This document shows positions 52,870-63,490 of a stretch of 64,000 nucleotides of DNA, in pieces. Positions within the stretch are counted from its first letter, which is position 1. The number at the start of each line of letters is the position of its first letter. The stretch is taken from contig NC_017059.1 in NCBI RefSeq assembly GCF_000284415.1, forward strand, positions 2,280,690 through 2,344,689. The letters are read 5' to 3'. Source of the DNA: Pararhodospirillum photometricum DSM 122 (GTDB lineage Bacteria > Pseudomonadota > Alphaproteobacteria > Rhodospirillales > Rhodospirillaceae). A program made the translations under genes and the position numbers. The notes under the pieces are model-generated. The model did no database searches. It was given only the letters and a program-made list of their open reading frames with translations, and was not told the origin of the DNA.

Positions 52870-53358
52870 TCCAAGAAGGCGGAAGGCGCCAAGGGCGTCG
52901 AGATCGCCATCCCGATATTCGGTTACAAGAACCACATCTCGACCGACCGGCGCCACGGCTTCATCCGGCGCTGGGCGGTGTCCTCGGCCGCCGAGCACGA
53001 CAGCCGCCGCTTCCGCGAGGTGCTCGACAGCGGCAACACTGGTGCCGACGTCTGGGCAGATACCGCCTATCGCTCGCGCAAGAACGAGGAGTTCATGGCG
53101 AAACGGGGCCTGCGCTCGAAGGTCCATTTCCGCCGGGCACCGGGCAAGCCACTGTCACAGGCCCAAGCTAAGGCCAACGCCGCCCGCTCCAAGGTGCGCT
53201 CGGCCGTCGAGCATGTCTTCGCGTGCCAGAAAGGGCCGATGGCCCTCTTCGTCCGCACCATCGGCATCGCCAGGGCCAAAACCAAGATCGGCATGGCCAA
53301 TCTCGTCTACAACATGCGCCGCCTAGTCTGGTGGGACGGGAGAACTGCGCCCGCATGA
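52870..53358 (+). mobile_element. IS5-family transposase, 5'-truncated
   Basis: An open frame of 163 codons without start gives the C-terminal half of an IS5-type DDE transposase: EIAIPIFGYKNHISTD, the second catalytic Asp in VWADTAYRS, and the Glu region SAVEHVFACQKG, ending NLVYNMRRLVWW. The N-terminal part with the first Asp and the left inverted repeat are absent. The right end probably lies within 53359-53500, where no gene is seen. It is a dead remnant flanking the Mrr-STAND gene. Confidence 0.85.
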
Positions 53359-53529: not shown

Positions 53530-53550
53530 CGAATTAAGTGCAGTGGCACG
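53530..53550. repeat. Left inverted repeat of the Mrr-STAND module
   Basis: cgaattaagtgcagtggcac. Its reverse complement, with three mismatches in 20 bases, lies at 56453-56472 beyond the start of the 921-aa gene; GGAGCGA motifs lie just outside both. This could be the terminal repeat pair of a mobile unit. Confidence 0.5.
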
Positions 53551-53572
53551 GGAACCCGCCGGAACCAGGAAC

Positions 53573-56338
53573 CTAGGCCGCCTTCAGCGTGCGGCTGCGG
53601 ACGTGAGCCATCTCAACTCCAGCCTTCTTCGCCCAGTCAACAAGGATTTTGGCTACAAGCTTTGCCGTTCCTTCAGTCCAATTAGCCGCGAGCCTCTCGT
53701 TCAACGCAGCCCCGAGGTCGTTGTGTGAATAGCGTTGGTCCTTAGGCAACTCTGAGAGCATCGCCACGAACTCGGAGAAGCTGGACAGTTTTGATGCAGC
53801 TGCTCGGAACAGCTCAGGCCGCCGCGTCTCCTCCCTCATGAACTCCTCGCCAGCCGCTGTGAGCTTTGCATCCTTTGTTGGGCCGGAGAGGAACGACAAG
53901 GCGAATGCCATGTTTATTGCTTTGGCTGTAGTTGAAGATGCCATGCCCTCGAAACTCGGCTTTTGTCTGCTCTTGGCCGCAACGATGAAGCGCGACAGCA
54001 CCTCCTCGATTGGTGCCACTTGGACGGTGGGAAGTGTGCCAGAAAGGCGACGTCCTGCCGAACGACGAGGCCTTTCGGGCGCTGTCCCGTCGTCCTTAGC
54101 GAGCTTTGCAACATTGCGTCTGGCGTCAAAGCTGACCAAGTCAGCGAAATCCATCCATCCGAGAAAGCAGACGACATATGTGTTCCACGTCTTGTCGTTC
54201 GCTTGAATATATGGGCACGCTTCCCTCATGACCTCAATCAGACGCACAGTGCCAACCTCGCCCTCGGCGTCAACGATCTCTTTGATAAGGTTGGTCACGC
54301 GGTTTTGACTAAGTTTCTGCTTGACGTGCGCAGCCACCGCTATATCGCGTCTAACGGCATCGACCGGGAGGGCGATGCGCGGGGTGATCACTTCGTTAGT
54401 GAAGTCAACAAGGCCAAGAAGGCGCATGTCTCGCAATACATTGTAAAATGTTTTTCCTGTAATGTCGCTATCGGCAATGAACTCAGAGGCAGAAATAGGC
54501 CCCTGCTTCGCCGCTATGACATTGAGTGCATTGCTAACCGATCCGACCTGCATCCTGAGAACATAGTTCTCCTGAGCTGGCAGCAAGCCTGTATTTAGGT
54601 AATCTCTGAATATGTCCCAGTATATGTCGTATTTGTGGCCTACGCGCACAATCAGGCGCTTGTGGATCAGGCTCTGGATTAGTTCGCGAGAGAAAGAATC
54701 TTGGAGGTCCTCACTGTCCACGGGGGCCACTCGAGCGATGCGCCGGAGAGCCGCTTCCTGCTCAGGGGCAAGCGACTGGAGATCCGTTCGAAACAACTCC
54801 TCGATGTTCAGGAGGCTTGACGCAATGCGCACCTGAGTAACGCCAGCATCTCGCTGCATCTTCACATGGGCGCAAAGTTTCTTCAGAAGCCAAGGATATC
54901 CCTGAGAAAACTCTGTCAGAAGGAAGGCAAGGTCTTTCCGCAGAGGCGCTTTAATCTCTCGACTGAGTTCATCTAACGTGAGCTGTATTTCTCGCTCGCC
55001 AAACTTTTTCAGCTGCAAACGCTGCGAGAGGTTTGCAATCGTGTCGCGGAGATGGTAGGGGAACGTGGAATGCGCCCCATACATATCCGTCTTCCACGAA
55101 AAGCCGAGGATGACGTTAGCTCCTGCGTCAGAGAGGCCAAGCAACAAATCATGGATGGGCTTCAGTGCTGGCGGAGCATAAAATAGGTTTTCAAACTGAT
55201 CGAAGAATATTATCAGGGATTTTTCGCGGGCCTTCAGTTGTTCTCCAGCTGCTGCGAGGCAGGACTTGACGGTCTCGAACCCGCTGATTGTATGGGTGCC
55301 GGAGATAGCACCTTCTGCCACGAGAGAGTGGAGGACGTGATCAGCGGCCTTCAGGACGAACTGAGAACTTGAAGCTGTTCGGGTGTCGATTGCAAAGCAG
55401 AGATGCCCTTCTTTCTTTAATGCGTCTACGCACCGAAGCACCAACGAACTTTTTCCCCAACCGGAGTCGGCCTCGAAAAGAATACCCCTGGAAGAGGCCT
55501 TGTTTTCCGCGACGCTTTTAACGAAATCGACAACTCGGCCAAGCTCCTCTTCTCTGCCAACAAAAAACTGTGGGGAGGCGGGAAACTGGTACTCAAAATA
55601 TGACGAACTCCCCCTTACCTCCACGATTTCTTCGGACACACCATGAAGTGCTGGGGCAATCTGGCCCTGCGGGATGTGAGCGGAAAAGCTGGCAAGTTCG
55701 TCGCTCAACTCACGGATTTTTGCGTGAAACGCCTGATCCGTAACGACGTTGCCCCTGTTATCATACAGTATGTAATGGCTTGGGGTGGTGCTACCATGCT
55801 GTATAAGAAAGAATACAGTAAATGCGCCCTCATTCGAGTAAATCACCCTGTACTCGCCACAAGAGAAATTATCAATGCGCACAGACGTAGACAGCTGCTG
55901 CGGGTCGATCATCAATTTGCTCTCTGAGAGCATATTAATGACATCGCCCTCATTCATATATCCTATCTCGTTGCCATCTCCAAAATTATCTTTGTAGAAG
56001 GTATAAGCGGATCCATTTAGCTCCGGAACAGCCACAAACAGGCCATTGCAATCACTATTTTTCCTTGAAAAAGCGAAGTACTTCCCAGTAAACGACTGAA
56101 TTTTTGGTGAATCAAGTGGGGTGCTACAGAACTTGCACTCAGCGTAAAGCGCTCGTTTGGTGAGCTTGTGCTCGCCTTCGATATCGATCTCCATGCCGCC
56201 GTGATTGGCATTCCGCTGGAGCACTCGGTAGCCTTGTTGCTCGATGATCGCATCCACAAGGCGCTCGAACAAATGGCCACGCTGATTTGCTCTCGCTGAA
56301 GAGGTGTCTCCGCTTCCAAGAACGATCAATCGCCCCAT
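53573..56338 (-). CDS. Mrr-type nuclease / STAND-NTPase fusion, candidate antiphage protein
   Basis: A 921-aa multidomain protein. Residues about 20-110 form a PD-(D/E)xK nuclease of the Mrr type, with E25, D52 (GGMEIDIEG) and E67-C-K69 (YAECKF). After an uncharacterised beta-rich segment (150-255) comes a STAND-like NTPase: FVGREEEL entry, Walker A ADSGWGKSS (K296) and Walker B SLIIFFDQFEN (D380, E383). The C-terminal half is helical with winged-helix-like segments and no obvious TPR or WD repeats. The domain order is that of nucleases switched on by an NTPase sensor, as in Avs proteins, but the chain is shorter. Base composition is clearly more AT-rich than the chromosome, and IS remnants flank it. 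ATG 56338 is chosen; GTG 56347 is possible. Confidence 0.7.
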   Translation of the reverse strand: MGRLIVLGSGDTSSARANQRGHLFERLVDAIIEQQGYRVLQRNANHGGMEIDIEGEHKLTKRALYAECKFCSTPLDSPKIQSFTGKYFAFSRKNSDCNGLFVAVPELNGSAYTFYKDNFGDGNEIGYMNEGDVINMLSESKLMIDPQQLSTSVRIDNFSCGEYRVIYSNEGAFTVFFLIQHGSTTPSHYILYDNRGNVVTDQAFHAKIRELSDELASFSAHIPQGQIAPALHGVSEEIVEVRGSSSYFEYQFPASPQFFVGREEELGRVVDFVKSVAENKASSRGILFEADSGWGKSSLVLRCVDALKKEGHLCFAIDTRTASSSQFVLKAADHVLHSLVAEGAISGTHTISGFETVKSCLAAAGEQLKAREKSLIIFFDQFENLFYAPPALKPIHDLLLGLSDAGANVILGFSWKTDMYGAHSTFPYHLRDTIANLSQRLQLKKFGEREIQLTLDELSREIKAPLRKDLAFLLTEFSQGYPWLLKKLCAHVKMQRDAGVTQVRIASSLLNIEELFRTDLQSLAPEQEAALRRIARVAPVDSEDLQDSFSRELIQSLIHKRLIVRVGHKYDIYWDIFRDYLNTGLLPAQENYVLRMQVGSVSNALNVIAAKQGPISASEFIADSDITGKTFYNVLRDMRLLGLVDFTNEVITPRIALPVDAVRRDIAVAAHVKQKLSQNRVTNLIKEIVDAEGEVGTVRLIEVMREACPYIQANDKTWNTYVVCFLGWMDFADLVSFDARRNVAKLAKDDGTAPERPRRSAGRRLSGTLPTVQVAPIEEVLSRFIVAAKSRQKPSFEGMASSTTAKAINMAFALSFLSGPTKDAKLTAAGEEFMREETRRPELFRAAASKLSSFSEFVAMLSELPKDQRYSHNDLGAALNERLAANWTEGTAKLVAKILVDWAKKAGVEMAHVRSRTLKAA

Positions 56339-56452
56339 GCCTATCACCGTGAATCAGCCTTGAAGAACGCCTAACGTGATAACTCAGACTTTGGGGCAAG
56401 GCCAGTCTAGGCTTCGTTTTAAGCGAAAATTGAGGGGCTGCTATGGGGGGCT

Positions 56453-56472
56453 GTGTCAGTCCACTTAATTCG
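56453..56472. repeat. Right inverted repeat of the Mrr-STAND module
   Basis: gtgtcagtccacttaattcg is the imperfect inverted counterpart of 53530-53550 (11 bases exact, 17 of 20 overall). The space 56339-56558 holds no gene I can support. Confidence 0.5.
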
Positions 56473-56559: not shown

Positions 56560-57966
56560 GATTGGTGTAACAGCGGTGTCGCCGTTTGATCTCCGGCAGG
56601 GTTGGCCGGATTGATCAGGCTGCCGCGACGGGCGGCAGGCTGGTGAGAGGATCATCACCCATGGTTGCGATGGTTTCCAGGGTCATGTATCGGGCTCTCG
56701 CCCATTCGTCGTTCTGCTCCAGCAGGATGGCGCCGATCAGGCGGGTTATGGCGGCTTCGTTGGGGAAGATGCCGACCACCTCGGTGCGGCGTTTGATCTC
56801 GCCGTTAAGGCGCTCGATGGGATTGGTCGAGTGCAGCTTGGCGCGATGAGCCTGCGGGAAGTCCATGTATGCCAGGACGTCCATCTCGGCCCGGTCCATC
56901 AGATCAGCCAGTTTGTGCGCCCTGGGGCGCAACTGATCGGCAACCTGGCGCCATTGGGCGTGAGCTGCCGTGGCGGTTTACTGGGCGAAGGCGGTGCCGA
57001 TGAAGGCGGAGACGACGCGGCGCCCCTGCTTTCCGGCATGGGCCAGCACGTTGCGCATGAAGTGGACGCGGCAGCGCTGCCAGGTGGCGTTCAGCACTTT
57101 GGCGATGGCCGCCTTCAGGCCCTCGTGGGCATCGGACACCACCAGCTTGACGCCGCGCAGGCCACGGCGGGCCAGCTTGCGCAGGAAGTCGATCCAGAAA
57201 GTTTCGGCTTCCGACGGGCCGACGGCCATGCCCAGCACTTCGCGCCGTCCGGCGGTGTTGGCACCCACCGCGATGGTCACCGCCACGCTGACGATGCGGC
57301 CATCCTGGCGCACCTTCACATAGGTGGCGTCGAGCCAGACATAGGGCCAATCGCCCTCGATGGGCCGCTCCAGGAAGGTGGCGACCTTGCCGTCGATCTC
57401 GGCGCACAGGCGCGAGACTTGGCTCTTGGAGATGCCGGTTATGCCCATGGCCTTGACTAGGTCATCCACCGCCCGCGTCGAGATGCCCTGGACATAGGCT
57501 TCCTGAATGACGGCGGTCAGCGCCTTTTCCGCCATGCGGCGCGGCTCCAGGAAGCACGGCAGGTAGCTGCCCTTGCGCAGCCTGGGGATGCGCAGTTCCA
57601 CCGTTCCCGCCCGGGTCTCCCAGTCGCGATCACGGTAGCCGTTGCGGTGGGTTAGGCGGTCGGCGGGATTGCGCTCGCCATGCCCGGCGCCGGTCAGCGC
57701 GGCCACCTCCAGTTCCATCAGCCGCTCGGCGGCAAAGCCGATCATCTCGCGCAGAAGATCGGCATCGGCGCTCTTTTCCAGCAGGCCACGAAGGCTCATC
57801 ATCTCGTTGATCATCGTTCTGGTCCTTGGTTCGGTTGACGTCGCAAGCAAACCCTACCGAAGATCGACGATGACCACCCCGGTTTCGGGGCCGCCTGGGA
57901 ATGATGCCTCCGGGCGCTCCGCCCCCTGCACCATCATCCCAAGGCAAACGCTGCTACACCACTCAA
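56560..57966 (-). mobile_element. IS256-family insertion sequence
   Basis: The ends carry imperfect terminal inverted repeats: ggattggtgtaacagcg near 56560 and, on the other strand, gagtggtgtagcagcg from about 57964. They enclose a single mutator-type transposase gene. I could not see a convincing direct target duplication, so the precise ends are approximate. Confidence 0.7.
56615..57814 (-). pseudogene. IS256-family (mutator) transposase with in-frame stop
   Basis: From ATG 57814 ([15 protein letters not shown]) the protein shows [20 protein letters not shown] and [13 protein letters not shown] (first Asp). [13 protein letters not shown] (second Asp) follows, then a TAA at about 56978 after IGTAFAQ. 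Reading on in the same frame restores AHAQWRQVADQLRPRAHKLA and the catalytic Glu in STNPIERLNGEIKRR up to 56615. A single nonsense change therefore removes the third catalytic residue; the copy is inactive unless the stop is read through. Confidence 0.85.
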
Positions 57967-58835: not shown

Positions 58836-59168
58836 ATGGAGATCACGCTGGGCACCTTCACCAAGCTCGACGACGGCAGCTTCACCGGCACCCTCAAGAC
58901 CCTCAACATCACCGCCGCGCTGACCATCGTTCCGACCGAAAAAGTCTCCGAGCACGCCCCCGACCACCGGGTCTATGCCGGCCAGCGCACCGAGGTCGGC
59001 GCCGCCTGGAGCCAGGTCGCCAAGTCCAGCGGCGAGACCACTCTGAACCTCAAGATCGGTGCGCCGGAATTCGGTCCGAACTGGGTCCGGGCCCGGCTGG
59101 TCAAGCTCGAACGCCCCACCGACGAGGGCATCACCCACATTGCCCTGTGGGAGCCGCGCGACCGGTAA
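58836..59168 (+). CDS. DUF736 family protein
   Basis: A 110-aa protein: EITLGTFTKLDDGSFTGTLKTL, then VPTEKVSEHAPDHRVYAGQRTEVGAAW and KIGAPEFGPNWVRARL. This is the DUF736 pattern, carried by many integrative conjugative elements and plasmids of alphaproteobacteria near the transfer genes. AAGGAGAACGATC precedes ATG. The biochemical role is unknown. Confidence 0.88.
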   Translation: MEITLGTFTKLDDGSFTGTLKTLNITAALTIVPTEKVSEHAPDHRVYAGQRTEVGAAWSQVAKSSGETTLNLKIGAPEFGPNWVRARLVKLERPTDEGITHIALWEPRDR

Positions 59169-59352
59169 TCCCCCCAAACAGCCCCGCTGCGGATCGCCGT
59201 GGCGAGGCTTTTCCTGTGGTGCTGCGGGGGATCGAAAACCAGGGGGGCCGGTTTTCGAGCGTCCCGCCCGCCGTCCCATCACGTCCATCCTTGCCCCGGA
59301 TCAGGCGACCTGCGCCGTCGCCGCCGGGACCCAGATTCAAGGAGGAAACGCG

Positions 59353-59601
59353 ATGGATGACGAGATTCTTCGAGCCGCCAACGCCCGCAAAGGCAGCCCG
59401 TTTCTCAACACCGACCAAGCCGCCCATTACATCGGCCTGTCGCGGCGGACGCTGGAAAAGATGCGCACCACCGGGGACGGACCGCGCTTTCGCAAGCATG
59501 GTCGCTATGTCCGTTACCACATCGACGACCTTGACGATTGGTCGCGCGGCCATGGCAAGGCCTCGACCTCCGACGCCGGAATCCGGGGGACACGGCGATG
59601 A
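59353..59601 (+). CDS. Helix-turn-helix (excisionase-like) DNA-binding protein
   Basis: An 82-aa MerR/excisionase-type protein: PFLNTDQAAHYIGLSRRTLEKM forms the helix-turn-helix and GPRFRKHGRYVRYHIDDLDDW the wing. Such proteins regulate excision or transfer genes of conjugative elements. GGAGG lies ten bases before ATG. Its stop overlaps the start of traF (ATGA). Confidence 0.88.
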   Translation: MDDEILRAANARKGSPFLNTDQAAHYIGLSRRTLEKMRTTGDGPRFRKHGRYVRYHIDDLDDWSRGHGKASTSDAGIRGTRR

Positions 59602-60149
59602 TCGGCCCCCGGCTGTTTCGGATCGGGGGGCGCCGGCGCGGGCGGTCCCGCCCGCAACGCATCCTCGCCCTGGCCCTGGCCGGGCTCGTCTACCTCGGCC
59701 TCGCCGAGCTCGGCCGAGCGGCGCCCGGGCTGGTGTGGAACAATACCGCCAGTGCCCCGATCGGCTTGTATCGGCTGATGCCGTCCGCGCCGATTCATCG
59801 TGGCGACAGGGTGCTGGCCCGCCTGCCCGATCCGATGCGCCGACTGGCGGCGGAACGAGGCTATCTGCCGGAAACCGTGCCGCTGGTGAAGACGGTCGGC
59901 GGGGTCAGTGGCGACCTGATCTGCGCCGAGGGTGACACCATTCTCATCAACGGCCAACCGGTCGTCCTTCGTCTGCGCCAGGATCGCTGGGATCGTCCTA
60001 TGCCCACCTGGACCGGGTGCCGTCGTCTCGATGCGGACAAGGTTTTCCTGCTGACCGGCGATGTCGCCACATCCTTCGACGGTCGCTATTTCGGGCCGAT
60101 TCCGCGTTCCAACGTTCTCGGACTCCTGGTGCCGCTATGGACCGAATGA
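59598..60149 (+). CDS. traF: Conjugal transfer signal peptidase TraF (S26 family)
   Basis: A 183-aa membrane-anchored S26 protease: an N-terminal helix (RILALALAGLVYLGLAELG), the nucleophile Ser in NTASAPIGLYRLM, the general-base Lys in VPLVKTVGGVSGD, and LLTGDVATSFDGRYFGPI. TraF processes pilin in conjugation systems. It is translationally coupled to the HTH gene before and the transglycosylase after. Confidence 0.88.
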   Translation: MIGPRLFRIGGRRRGRSRPQRILALALAGLVYLGLAELGRAAPGLVWNNTASAPIGLYRLMPSAPIHRGDRVLARLPDPMRRLAAERGYLPETVPLVKTVGGVSGDLICAEGDTILINGQPVVLRLRQDRWDRPMPTWTGCRRLDADKVFLLTGDVATSFDGRYFGPIPRSNVLGLLVPLWTE

Positions 60150-60712
60150 CCCTCGCTCTTCTCGTCACCCTGGTGCTGGTGCCGACAGTTTCGACCGCGT
60201 CCGATCTGGATCGCTGGAACGCTGACATCGCTGAGGCGTCGCGCCGCTTCGCCATCCCGGAAGGGTGGATTCGCTCGGTGATCCGGGCAGAAAGCGGCGG
60301 TCATGCCGAGCGCGCTGGACGTCCGATCACCTCGCCGGCCGGGGCGATCGGGCTGATGCAACTGATGCCCGACACCTATCGCGAGATGCGCGAGGCCCAC
60401 GGTTTGGGCTCCGATCCGGCCGATCCGCGCGACAACATCCTGGCCGGGACCGCCTATCTGCGGGCGATGCTCGACCGCTTCGGTCCAACCGGGGTGTTCG
60501 CCGCCTACAATGCCGGGCCGGGGCGCTACGAGCAGAGTCTGCGCGGTCGACCCTTGCCGGCCGAGACCCGGCATTACCTGACCGGGATGTCCGTGTCCGC
60601 CTCGTCCCAGCCCGCGCCATCGATCCGGCTGACGCGGTCATCGGGGACGCTGTGGCCGTCGCCGGGCGATCTGTTCGTGCCGCTCGGTCAGGCGGCCGGG
60701 GGCGGGAAGTGA
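60137..60712 (+). CDS. Conjugal transfer lytic transglycosylase (SLT domain)
   Basis: A 191-aa exported wall hydrolase. A signal sequence (LALLVTLVLVPTVSTA) is followed by IPEGWIRSVIRAESGGHAE, with the catalytic Glu, then SPAGAIGLMQLMPDTY and VFAAYNAGPGRYE. It opens peptidoglycan for the transfer apparatus. ATG 60137 overlaps traF by 13 bases; ATG 60146 is an alternative with an ATGA overlap. Confidence 0.88.
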   Translation: MDRMTLALLVTLVLVPTVSTASDLDRWNADIAEASRRFAIPEGWIRSVIRAESGGHAERAGRPITSPAGAIGLMQLMPDTYREMREAHGLGSDPADPRDNILAGTAYLRAMLDRFGPTGVFAAYNAGPGRYEQSLRGRPLPAETRHYLTGMSVSASSQPAPSIRLTRSSGTLWPSPGDLFVPLGQAAGGGK

Positions 60713-60803
60713 CCAGCGGAGCCTCCTGCGGAGGCGGGGCCTCGTCTCGGCCTTTTGATTCTACCAGCCAGGGCGACGCACCGGTCAAGGATGCGCGGTC
60801 CCC

Positions 60804-60825
60804 CCAAAATGCGGGCGCATTTTGG
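60804..60825. repeat. Perfect 10-bp inverted repeat
   Basis: ccaaaatgcg-gg-cgcattttgg between the transglycosylase gene and the 112-aa gene. A regulatory or processing role is possible. Confidence 0.5.
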
Positions 60826-60933
60826 CTCCCCCACGCCCCGCTGCGCGGCGCCTGCGGCGTCCCTGACCGACGCGTCCCCGGCTGCTCCCGGGAGGTGTCC
60901 TCGCTCAGGAGGACATCATTTCAGGAGGGTGCC

Positions 60934-61272
60934 ATGTCGCAGACCTTCGTTCATCCGCACGCCGAATTCGATCGTTTTCCGGCGCTGGCCGAGGAATTCG
61001 GCGCCGATGTCATCGCGGACATCATCGCCGCGGAAGTCGCCGATTTCGCCTGGGACAGTCGCTTCGCCGAACGCAATCTCGGGGCCTGGGACGGCTTCGA
61101 GGACGAGGATTTCGACGCAGATATCGTCCGCATCATCGGCTATTTCCGCAGCCGTTACATCGTCGCGACCTGCCTCGTCGATGCCAACCGGCGCGTCCGG
61201 GCGATGCTGACTCAGCGTCATTTCGACAGCTTCGAGGATGCCGAACAGGCGTTCCTGGACGGCGGGGGGTGA
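60934..61272 (+). CDS. Conserved hypothetical protein of conjugative elements, 112 aa
   Basis: An acidic protein: FGADVIADIIAAEVADFAWD, GAWDGFEDEDFDADI and RRVRAMLTQRHFDSFEDAE. CAGGAGGGTG precedes ATG. Similar small acidic proteins are found between the transglycosylase and relaxase genes of alphaproteobacterial ICEs, but I know no function. Confidence 0.65.
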   Translation: MSQTFVHPHAEFDRFPALAEEFGADVIADIIAAEVADFAWDSRFAERNLGAWDGFEDEDFDADIVRIIGYFRSRYIVATCLVDANRRVRAMLTQRHFDSFEDAEQAFLDGGG

Positions 61273-61390
61273 CCCTCGCCGGGCCGGTATTCGGCCCTTT
61301 GTCCGAGTCTCGGCCCGGAGAAGACAGCGTAGGACAGCGCAGATGGGACAGGGGGAACCAGGGTTTGATGGAAAGCAAGATTAAAGGGCT

Positions 61391-61403
61391 GTCTCGTCGA
61401 GAC
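61391..61403. promoter_or_regulatory. Palindrome upstream of the relaxase gene
   Basis: gtctcg-t-cgagac, a perfect 6+1+6 palindrome about 110 bases before the relaxase start, in the 238-base gap 61273-61510. It is a candidate operator or part of oriT, which commonly lies near the relaxase gene. Confidence 0.4.
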
Positions 61404-61510
61404 GCCAAGTCATTGTCTGCACATCGTTATTTCGCGAGATAGATCCGGACGGTCACGAGACGGCACCCCGCCAACGCCTTGATTCTTATATAGTCGCAGG
61501 AGAGCCGACC

Positions 61511-63490
61511 ATGAATCAGGATGACGACTTCAAGCCGAAGCTCGGCAAGATCCGGGCTGGGGGCGGACCGCGCGGCCGCAAATTTCTGCATCAGGTCCTG
61601 GTGGCGGCCAACCGTGCCGGTGGGCAGAGTCCGGGCGCTCGGCCGTCAAAATTCCACGGCGGCCAGATTGGACGCGGTGCCGGCATCGGCCGGATGCTGT
61701 CGTCGCGCGATCGCCATGCCGCTTTTCGCAGCCGCCGCGTCGTCGTCAAATCCCGCATCGTCAAACTGGCGGGGAAGGGCGTCGCCGGGGCGAAGGCCCA
61801 TCTGCGCTATATCCAGCGGGACTGCGTGACCCGCGATGGCTCCCCGGGGCAGCTCTATAGCGCCGAGCAGGACCGGGTTGACGGCAAGCCCTTCCTCGAC
61901 CGCGCCGAGGGCGACCGCCACCAGTTCCGTTTCATTGTCGCTCCCGAGGACGGCGACCAGTACGACGATCTGAAGCCGCTGACCCGTCGGTTGATGGCGC
62001 AGATGGAGCAGGATCTCGGTACCCGGCTCGATTGGGTCGCGGTCGACCATTACAACACCGGCCATCCGCACAGCCATATCATCGTCCGGGGGCGCGACGA
62101 CCGGGACCAGGATCTGGTGATCGCCCGGGAGTATATCACCACCGGCCTGCGCGAGCGGGCCACCGACCTGGTGACCCTCGACCTTGGTCCCCGTACCGAT
62201 CTGGAGATCGAGAACCGGCTGCGGCACGACATCGAGCAGGAGCGCCTGACCTCCATCGATCACCGACTGCTGCGCGATGTCGATCCCGACCGGCTGGTCT
62301 GGTCCACAGACAAGGATGTCTTCCAGCAGAGTCTGCGCGCCGGTCGTCTGCAAAAGTTGAAGCGGCTCGGTCTGGCCGACGAGGTCGCGCCGGGGCGATG
62401 GCGGCTGGCCGATGATATCGAGAACACCCTGCGCCGGATGGGCGAGCGTGGCGATATTCTCAAGACGATGAGCCGCGAGATGACGGCCAAGGGGCTGGTT
62501 CGCTCCGGTGCCGATCTCGTCCTGCACGATCCGGCGGCACCACCGACGCGACCGATTGTCGGCCGCCTCGTCGCGCGCGGTCTGTCCGACGAGATCAAGG
62601 ACCGCCATTACCTGATCGTCGATGCGGTCGATGGTCGCACCCATTACGTCGAAATCGGCAAGGGCGATGCCATCGCTCCCATTCCCGACGGTGCAATCCT
62701 GCGGCTCGATCCCAGATCGGTCGAGCCCCGTGCCGTCGATCACACCATCGCCGAGATCGCGGCGGCGCATGGTGGGCGGTACGGCGTCGATATCCATCTG
62801 CGTCATGACCCAACCGCCAGCGAGGCGTTTGTCGAGACCCATGTCCGGCGGCTGGAGGCGATGCGGCGGTTGACCGGGGCTGTCGAACGCGAGGCCGACG
62901 GCGCCTGGATCATCGCTCCCGATCATCTCGAGCGCGCAACAGCATTCGAGCGAAGACAAGCCCAGGATGCTCCGGTGGTGGTGCGAACCCTATCGGCGCT
63001 GCCGTTGGACCGTCAGATTGCCGCCGATGGGGCAACTTGGCTCGACCGCGAACTGGTCGCCGCGACTCCCGAGCCGTTGCGCGATGCCGGCTTCGGCCGC
63101 GACGTTCGCGCCGCCCTGGTCCAGCGGCGGCAATGGTTGATCGAGCAGGGACTGGCCCGCCAGGAGCCGAACCGTGTCCTGTTCCGCGCCGACCTGCTCG
63201 ACGTGCTGCGCCGGCGCGAATTGCTCCGCGTCGCCGGCCAGCTTTCCGACGAACTCGGCCTCGCCTTCGTCGAGACCAAGCCCGGCCAGCCAGTCGAGGG
63301 CGTCTATCGTCGCGCCGTCGATCTCGTTGGCGGCAAGGCGGCGCTGATTGAGAACAGCCGCGAGTTCACCCTAGTGCCGTGGCGCCCGGTGCTCGACCAC
63401 CATATCGGCAAGCAGGTCTCCGGCATCCTGCGCGGCGACGACATTTCCTGGACCATCGGCCGCCAGCGCGGCGGGCCAAGCGTGTCGTAA
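61511..63490 (+). CDS. VirD2-type relaxase/mobilization nuclease (DUF3363)
   Basis: A 659-aa relaxase that nicks oriT and pilots the strand in conjugation. It has GAGIGRMLSSRDRHAAFRSRRVVVK, AKAHLRYIQRDCVTRDG and the histidine triad region DHYNTGHPHSHIIVRG that binds the metal. The C-terminal DUF3363 part includes AALVQRRQWLIEQGLARQE and ends GGPSVS. GGAGAGCCGACC precedes the ATG. The coupling protein gene normally following is not seen; an oppositely oriented MBL gene lies there instead. Confidence 0.92.
   Translation: MNQDDDFKPKLGKIRAGGGPRGRKFLHQVLVAANRAGGQSPGARPSKFHGGQIGRGAGIGRMLSSRDRHAAFRSRRVVVKSRIVKLAGKGVAGAKAHLRYIQRDCVTRDGSPGQLYSAEQDRVDGKPFLDRAEGDRHQFRFIVAPEDGDQYDDLKPLTRRLMAQMEQDLGTRLDWVAVDHYNTGHPHSHIIVRGRDDRDQDLVIAREYITTGLRERATDLVTLDLGPRTDLEIENRLRHDIEQERLTSIDHRLLRDVDPDRLVWSTDKDVFQQSLRAGRLQKLKRLGLADEVAPGRWRLADDIENTLRRMGERGDILKTMSREMTAKGLVRSGADLVLHDPAAPPTRPIVGRLVARGLSDEIKDRHYLIVDAVDGRTHYVEIGKGDAIAPIPDGAILRLDPRSVEPRAVDHTIAEIAAAHGGRYGVDIHLRHDPTASEAFVETHVRRLEAMRRLTGAVEREADGAWIIAPDHLERATAFERRQAQDAPVVVRTLSALPLDRQIAADGATWLDRELVAATPEPLRDAGFGRDVRAALVQRRQWLIEQGLARQEPNRVLFRADLLDVLRRRELLRVAGQLSDELGLAFVETKPGQPVEGVYRRAVDLVGGKAALIENSREFTLVPWRPVLDHHIGKQVSGILRGDDISWTIGRQRGGPSVS

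Follow-up and report, generated by a model that had tools for sequence, protein, structure and literature searches.

What does a single gene, richer in AT than its surroundings, do between the remnants of two insertion sequences (IS)? The question is raised by a 64,000-nucleotide stretch of the Pararhodospirillum photometricum DSM 122 genome (NC_017059.1, positions 2,280,690 to 2,344,689; here the window), where a predicted Mrr-type nuclease is joined to a STAND NTPase in one reading frame. The gene, here the Mrr-nSTAND gene, is probably a single-gene anti-phage STAND nuclease system, a reading given a probability of about 0.7. At the level of sequence it is carried by the domain order, the catalytic and nucleotide-binding residues, the sporadic spread, the many mobile or defence neighbourhoods and the fast divergence of the C-terminal half. 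It is well supported because relatives lie in the P4 psu-int slot, in prophages and in a BREX operon, and the window gene beside an element carrying SIR2-HerA. An earlier note on this DNA had proposed a nuclease under a STAND NTPase in antiphage defence; judged by location, the proposal is partly supported, by many scattered members of the family but not by one branch in the Desulfobacterales.

The window gene is open over 924 amino acids counted from a GTG codon, or over the 921 amino acids of the earlier note from an in-frame ATG at 56338, three codons downstream. Residue numbers here count from the GTG and equal those of the note plus three, and at this offset all nuclease and STAND residues it had named are present. 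The gene cannot be a chance open reading frame (ORF), since 17 confirmed relatives were found in genome contigs, 16 of them near full length and one cut by a contig end. In the window protein, both Mrr_cat (1.2e-5, 25.8 bits vs a cut-off of 21) and nSTAND1 (2.1e-9, 37.9 bits vs a curated cut-off of 27.1) are recognized by Pfam, the latter with intact Walker A and B motifs, and the nSTAND1 profile matches 16 of 16 members of alignment A1 at E <= 0.01. Among the 22 members of alignment A2, no change occurs at E28, K299, D383 or E386 and almost none at K72; D55 and E70 fall outside the invariant set, being changed in the Desulfobacterales branch. Residues 421-590 presumably form a lid and a winged helix. 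The C-terminal half had been described as free of visible TPR or WD repeats, and Pfam gives no match to either in the window protein. A phmmer search of the protein against the PDB gave no match, while the family profile gave 35 weak ones at E <= 1, including RFC5, AF1548, AfsR, RuvB-like and SmtB.

The distribution of the family is sporadic. Besides the genome contigs, relatives were found in 15 plasmid records (six covering at least 80% of the protein) and in viral contigs (nine relatives), and none in the phage records scanned. Aligned members are 22-40% identical to the window protein, and public records carry the annotation 'restriction endonuclease'. The phyla represented number at least five (Pseudomonadota, Thermodesulfobacteriota, Cloacimonadota, Actinomycetota and Bacteroidota). 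P. photometricum holds one copy. Searches with the single protein, less sensitive than the family profile, found the gene in none of 60 other relatives and in none of the 397 others examined in the phylum; the profile found it in one of 384 others in the class and one of 297 others in Pseudomonas. Twenty scattered members, the window's included, were retained after dropping near-identical or cut rows (L026 and L029, which are like L030, and L036) and rows with identical last 300 residues, L025 and L028 still being close to each other; all 20 keep the strict E28-D55-E70-K72 set and the checked Walker residues. A split nuclease/STAND arrangement in G767 (L037:8831-13341) was rejected as a natural form; a transposase ORF, which we take to be IS66-like (unscanned), lies between the halves and the copy is broken.

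The earlier note had proposed surveying the neighbourhoods of homologues. Mobile or defence neighbours were recognized for 14 of the 20 scattered members, the window's again included; these recurrently lie in hotspots, at defence loci or on mobile elements. In the Desulfobacterales group a conserved non-defence locus was found instead. L030, seen through the similar L031, is P4-like, lies between psu (phrog_6366, 7e-100) and an integrase gene and in E. coli adjoins ssrA. A phage portal gene lies near L025 and L028, terminase and holin genes near L023, and integrase, primase and PDC-S20 genes near L024. Integrase genes are found at 0.6 kb from L013 and 5.3 kb from L015, L019, L021 and L022 are plasmid-borne, a type III methyltransferase gene is near L058/L080, and L060/L081, the weakest of the 14 cases, has one adjoining SoFic-type gene (5.8e-51). 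One homologue (L057/L079; L079:17-12455) lies within a BREX operon, with the end of BrxC upstream and PglX just before it, followed by a HEC-02A-type ATPase and BrxHI. This fits PMC12839542, in which the auxiliary effectors of BREX loci are noted to include PD-(D/E)xK nucleases. The gene is present in 54 of 5426 E. coli genomes, always chromosomal and at >= 99% identity, and 53 matches cover at least 80% of the query, the other (L036:8001-9548, E. coli MB53) being cut next to IS1. An integrase gene lies under the match in all 20 of the 54 that were listed, and two E. coli regions opened both adjoin ssrA, one of them cut by IS1 and with no psu in view. The E. coli homologue WP_000113630.1 occupies the P4 psu-int slot. 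According to the available text of PMC9122126 (2022), this slot is an anti-phage hotspot from which P4's own genes and 18 other systems were cloned, seven systems being protective, and psu-int STAND proteins with an Mrr_cat nuclease effector are mentioned there. The P4-like satellites of E. coli hold a homologue suited as a test subject.

In the mechanism proposed, the STAND NTPase would hold the N-terminal Mrr-type PD-(D/E)xK nuclease in check, while the fast-evolving C-terminal half may recognize a trigger derived from the invader. An ATP-dependent rearrangement, probably with oligomerization, would then bring the nuclease domains together, and cutting of what is presumably DNA would stop the infection.

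The window gene lies at the edge of a conjugative-type element, resembling an integrative and conjugative element (ICE), that also carries a known defence pair (Table 1). The pair, 8.5 kb from the gene, was identified with PADLOC 2.0.0 of 2023 (HerA 1.4e-225, SIR2 1.2e-96) and lies between the relaxase and trb-like genes; past the right end of the window, trbB- and trbE-like genes were recognized by eye, where PADLOC gives only mads_8-type and weak ATPase matches. The ORF at 60265-61272, between the conjugative-element genes, has no Pfam match. The gene had been called a solitary cassette, which is right for a single gene but not for this setting. As the earlier note had observed, composition around the gene is richer in AT (GC content 0.50-0.60 in the four kilobase steps overlapping it vs about 0.66-0.68 in adjoining steps) and IS remnants occur on both sides, the 3' part of a DDE_Tnp_1 transposase on the left and a broken Mutator/IS256-type transposase on the right. 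These are different IS, and cargo of a composite transposon was rejected. To the left of the DDE remnant are a CitMHS-type transporter gene and, by eye, rpsD. No usable empty site emerged for the window gene: in G013 and G027 the pair of left neighbours is widely separated or split between contigs, in G001 it is split between contigs, and each of the remaining six relatives matched only the first neighbour. The same genome region also encodes an 865-amino-acid protein (L098:17184-19781) with a TIR-like start and matches to PDC-S66 and SAVED_TIR.

Table 1. Positions of the Mrr-nSTAND gene, its domains and the features around it (window coordinates unless a contig is named).
Feature	Positions	Strand	Basis or remark
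Mrr-nSTAND gene	53573..56347	-	Open frame and translation; relatives match nearly full length
Mrr_cat nuclease domain, residues 23-120, E28/D55/E70/K72 (E70-x-K72)	55988..56281	-	Pfam PF04471
Linker domain, residues 146-250	55598..55912	-	Aligned in 16 members of alignment A1
nSTAND1 NTPase, residues 258-454	54986..55576	-	Pfam PF20703
Walker A ADSGWGKSS, residues 293-301 (K299)	55445..55471	-	G298-K299-S300 unchanged in 39/39 rows
Walker B IFFDQFE, residues 380-386	55190..55210	-	D383, Q384, F385, E386 invariant in 22 A2 members
Rest of STAND module, residues 421-590, motifs SQGYPWLLKK and YWDIFRDYL	54578..55087	-	Alignment
C-terminal half, residues 591-924, putative sensor	53576..54577	-	Least or near-least conserved part in scattered subclades
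AAA_assoc_C-like segment, residues 808-906	53630..53926	-	PF09821, 4e-5, below cut-off in window protein
Inverted repeat, left arm, 20 nt	53530..53549	+	17/20 match between arms
Inverted repeat, right arm, 20 nt	56453..56472	-	17/20 match between arms
DDE (IS5/IS4-type, DDE_Tnp_1) transposase, 3' remnant, left of gene	52978..53358	+	PF01609, 2.7e-8, profile positions 56-200 of 200
Mutator/IS256-type transposase in two frames, right of gene	56615..57850	-	PF00872, 2e-87, for 56978-57850; 56615-56932 an ORF only, unscanned
Conjugative/mobilisable element genes: DUF736, HTH_17, S26 peptidase, DUF3363 relaxase	58836..63490	+	Pfam
SIR2-HerA pair	L097:1507-4334 = G000:C1:2345506-2348333		Just past the right end of the window; L097 starts at G000:C1:2344000

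The gene is bracketed exactly by the arms of the 20-nt inverted repeat, the outer edges of which are the outer coordinates (53530 and 56472) that the earlier note gave for the locus. Their 17/20 pairing was reached by one of 2000 dinucleotide shuffles of both flanks. In the flanks of 22 relatives, an inverted pair beyond shuffles was found only in the AT-rich L002 (17/20; 4/200 shuffles). The two arms are the sole matches in the genome at <= 3 mismatches, the backward control likewise giving two. Other genera of the family contain similar sequences, with 14 of 72 other genomes giving 19 matches at <= 2 mismatches (six for the backward control), and three viral contigs match the repeat pattern. 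Some of the 12 repeat stretches inspected there are close together and back to back, and no transposase was recognized by eye near them. The arms are not established as transposon ends, and a REP-like repeat fits better, because similar sequences are dispersed in other genera.

Several observations weigh against a defence function. No PADLOC model covers the family. The neighbours were hand-picked and partly scanned, the counts are without a random-gene baseline, contigs of metagenome-assembled genomes are short, several neighbour names were assigned by eye, and 7/10 and 3/10 neighbours in two PADLOC scans had no match. No mobile or defence neighbour was recognized for L001, L002, L012, L016, L020 and L070, two of which lie on short contigs; the count leaves out some genes beside L070 (L085) that look phage-like by eye. 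In the Desulfobacterales, moreover, all 17 full-length group members and L003 carry at least one gene of the same chromosomal block in the flanks examined, and the strict E-D-E-K set is kept in only one of 18 group rows (one of 19 counting L014, assigned by similarity). The family is not defence-only, because the nuclease of this branch has decayed and its place in the chromosome is fixed.

In this order (that of G802), the profile matches 30 of 291 genomes, which are a draw and not the full set. These are the 17 full-length group members (one, G1042, equated with L007 by coordinates), two contig-cut ones (L056/L014 and L059/L086), three of scattered type (L057, L058, L060) and eight weak short matches. 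The block has, by eye, an acyl-CoA synthetase gene on one side and genes for a 90-amino-acid protein, a histidine kinase, a response regulator and LolA-, NadA- and LepA-like proteins on the other. It varies: L004 and L009 have other upstream genes and are the only ones seen with the LepA-like gene, the synthetase gene is 3.9 kb off in L072, and L077 lacks the 90-amino-acid gene. L129 has the synthetase, 90-amino-acid, LolA and NadA genes without the Mrr-nSTAND gene and the kinase pair. No block gene was found on the short contigs of L014 and L086, and none of the other block genes was seen at L130, which encodes a 68% identical 90-amino-acid protein. This protein (L003:8115-8384), downstream of the Desulfobacterales genes, has no Pfam match; diverged relatives of it are numerous in the order, occurring in 62 of 194 genomes. 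At L009:1113-9254 the homologue is preceded by a Csx1-type gene, Cas1 and what look by eye like CRISPR repeats; none of these was noticed at the other group loci examined. In a tree of residues 20-600 (midpoint root) the 18 group rows are monophyletic, lying on one side of a branch with support 100/100, next to L001 and L002 (96/92) and with the window protein just outside; these three keep the full active site.

When D/E exchange is allowed and E28 and K72 are demanded, 9 of the 18 group rows are broken, two of them (L006 and L017) with K to R as the sole such change; the other eight non-canonical rows have D/E exchanges only and may keep nuclease activity. A tree from which the nuclease columns were left out requires at least one change at E28, four at D55, three at E70 and five at K72. 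Every changed row is in the group, whose share of the branch length is 4.58 of 21.96 units. If changes were spread evenly by length, the chance of 13/13 falling in the group would be near 1e-9, and for the eight non-D/E changes near 4e-6, both figures being computed after the pattern was seen and with independence assumed. The Walker B residue E386 is changed in 2 of 39 rows. The group genes are not pseudogenes but are less constrained than the one scattered pair compared, because the whole-gene ratio of nonsynonymous to synonymous substitution rates is 0.19-0.30 in seven group pairs (one row used twice) vs 0.07 in that pair. Within the group, residues 761-924 are the most conserved segment (0.667 vs 0.437-0.508 elsewhere; 85 pairs below 60% identity over 251-590). 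In the scattered sets (three subclades, one also with Mycobacterium, and the set of the window protein, L001 and L002), identity there is 0.26-0.51 vs 0.54-0.76 in the NTPase, below the NTPase in every set and not always lowest. L004, L009 and L017 exceed the AAA_assoc_C cut-off, and L004 that of HTH_IclR as well. Helix-turn-helix (HTH)-type matches, mostly below cut-off, occur in 5 of 10 C-terminal halves scanned (L002, L004, L009, L020, L079); L013 gave no Pfam match, and L015, L022 and L031 gave only unrelated weak ones. The Desulfobacterales branch looks like one domesticated into a non-cutting regulator. Tentatively, a mobile immune receptor may have been domesticated there once and inherited vertically at a fixed locus. 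Its active site would have been lost several times over with the ATP switch left intact, and the C-terminal winged-helix/AAA_assoc_C region would have gone from among the fastest to the slowest in evolution, turning a phage sensor into an ATP-switched, non-cutting DNA-binding regulator. If true, the branch offers a natural before/after comparison of a bacterial immune receptor that loses its effector and is reused.

Other functions can be proposed for the family. It could comprise modification-dependent, type IV-like restriction enzymes, in which foreign or modified DNA would be sensed directly by winged-helix-type domains at the C-terminus, and translocation or assembly would be powered by the NTPase in the manner of McrBC, without cell suicide. 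The Mrr_cat domain, the HTH-type matches in some relatives, the 'restriction endonuclease' annotation and the member beside PglX inside BREX agree with this; however, the NTPase is nSTAND1, unlike the AAA+ type of McrB, L013, L015, L022 and L031 lack an HTH match, and fast C-terminal divergence suits recognition of a protein trigger at least equally, so that this reading is considered unlikely. Less probable still is a plasmid/ICE-competition or addiction module that would protect not the cell from phage but the carrier element from other mobile elements. It would explain why the gene is found on plasmids, in prophages and satellites, and beside an ICE-like element, but one member is inside a BREX operon and, as far as the text of PMC9122126 describes them, P4-like elements have anti-phage genes of proven activity in that very slot. 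In the remaining reading, all members are regulatory or housekeeping proteins that use the nuclease fold to bind DNA. This accords with the fixed locus, broken active sites and purifying selection in the Desulfobacterales branch; given the sporadic distribution and the complete active site of all 20 scattered members, it is given very little credence. The favoured explanation remains a single-gene anti-phage STAND nuclease, and the window gene belongs to a mobile, widespread family, barely described so far and outside the PADLOC 2.0.0 models.

On the best reading the family resembles Avs in its mode of action but, as far as the tests made can tell, does not belong to it. The Avs (AVAST) proteins, Avs1-5, are STAND nucleases, some with Mrr-type effectors, in which a C-terminal TPR-like repeat sensor is triggered by a phage protein to bring about oligomerization and nuclease activation. 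An N-terminal nuclease effector, a STAND NTPase and a divergent C-terminal sensor half are seen in both, whereas the window family, of about 900-950 amino acids, is of nSTAND1 type, has no TPR match in Pfam and has some HTH-type or AAA_assoc_C matches. Avs models are included in PADLOC 2.0.0 and Avs structures in the PDB; 22 members together match 11 PADLOC families (E <= 0.01), none of them Avs, in a test without a positive control, and no Avs chain is among the 35 PDB sequences matched by the family profile. The earlier note had suggested a distinct antiphage family; a pairing of Mrr and STAND in P4 was already in print in 2022 (PMC9122126). As far as that paper's text allows comparison, its psu-int STAND effectors share the Mrr_cat effector and the slot of WP_000113630.1 and differ in having C-terminal repeats. 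A named family for the window protein was not found in the open-licence PMC literature (supplementary tables outside the scope), where nSTAND1 proteins are discussed as putative antigen sensors in PMC10907252. The PADLOC candidate family PDC-S02 is similar in the nuclease domain (residues 20-121, 4.9e-6), but one of 22 members matches, over the nuclease only; another PDC-S02 protein, with YhcG nuclease domains, is encoded two genes away from the homologue in L079. The Mrr_cat fold and the PD-(D/E)xK residues are shared with Mrr-type (type IV) restriction endonucleases, from which the window protein differs by its complete STAND module and its long C-terminal half. The earlier note had singled out an unassigned segment (150-255 in its numbering) as distinguishing; the linker at residues 146-250 is common to the whole aligned family but poorly conserved (mean identity 0.18 among scattered members), and the feature that separates the family from Avs may instead be the C-terminal half.

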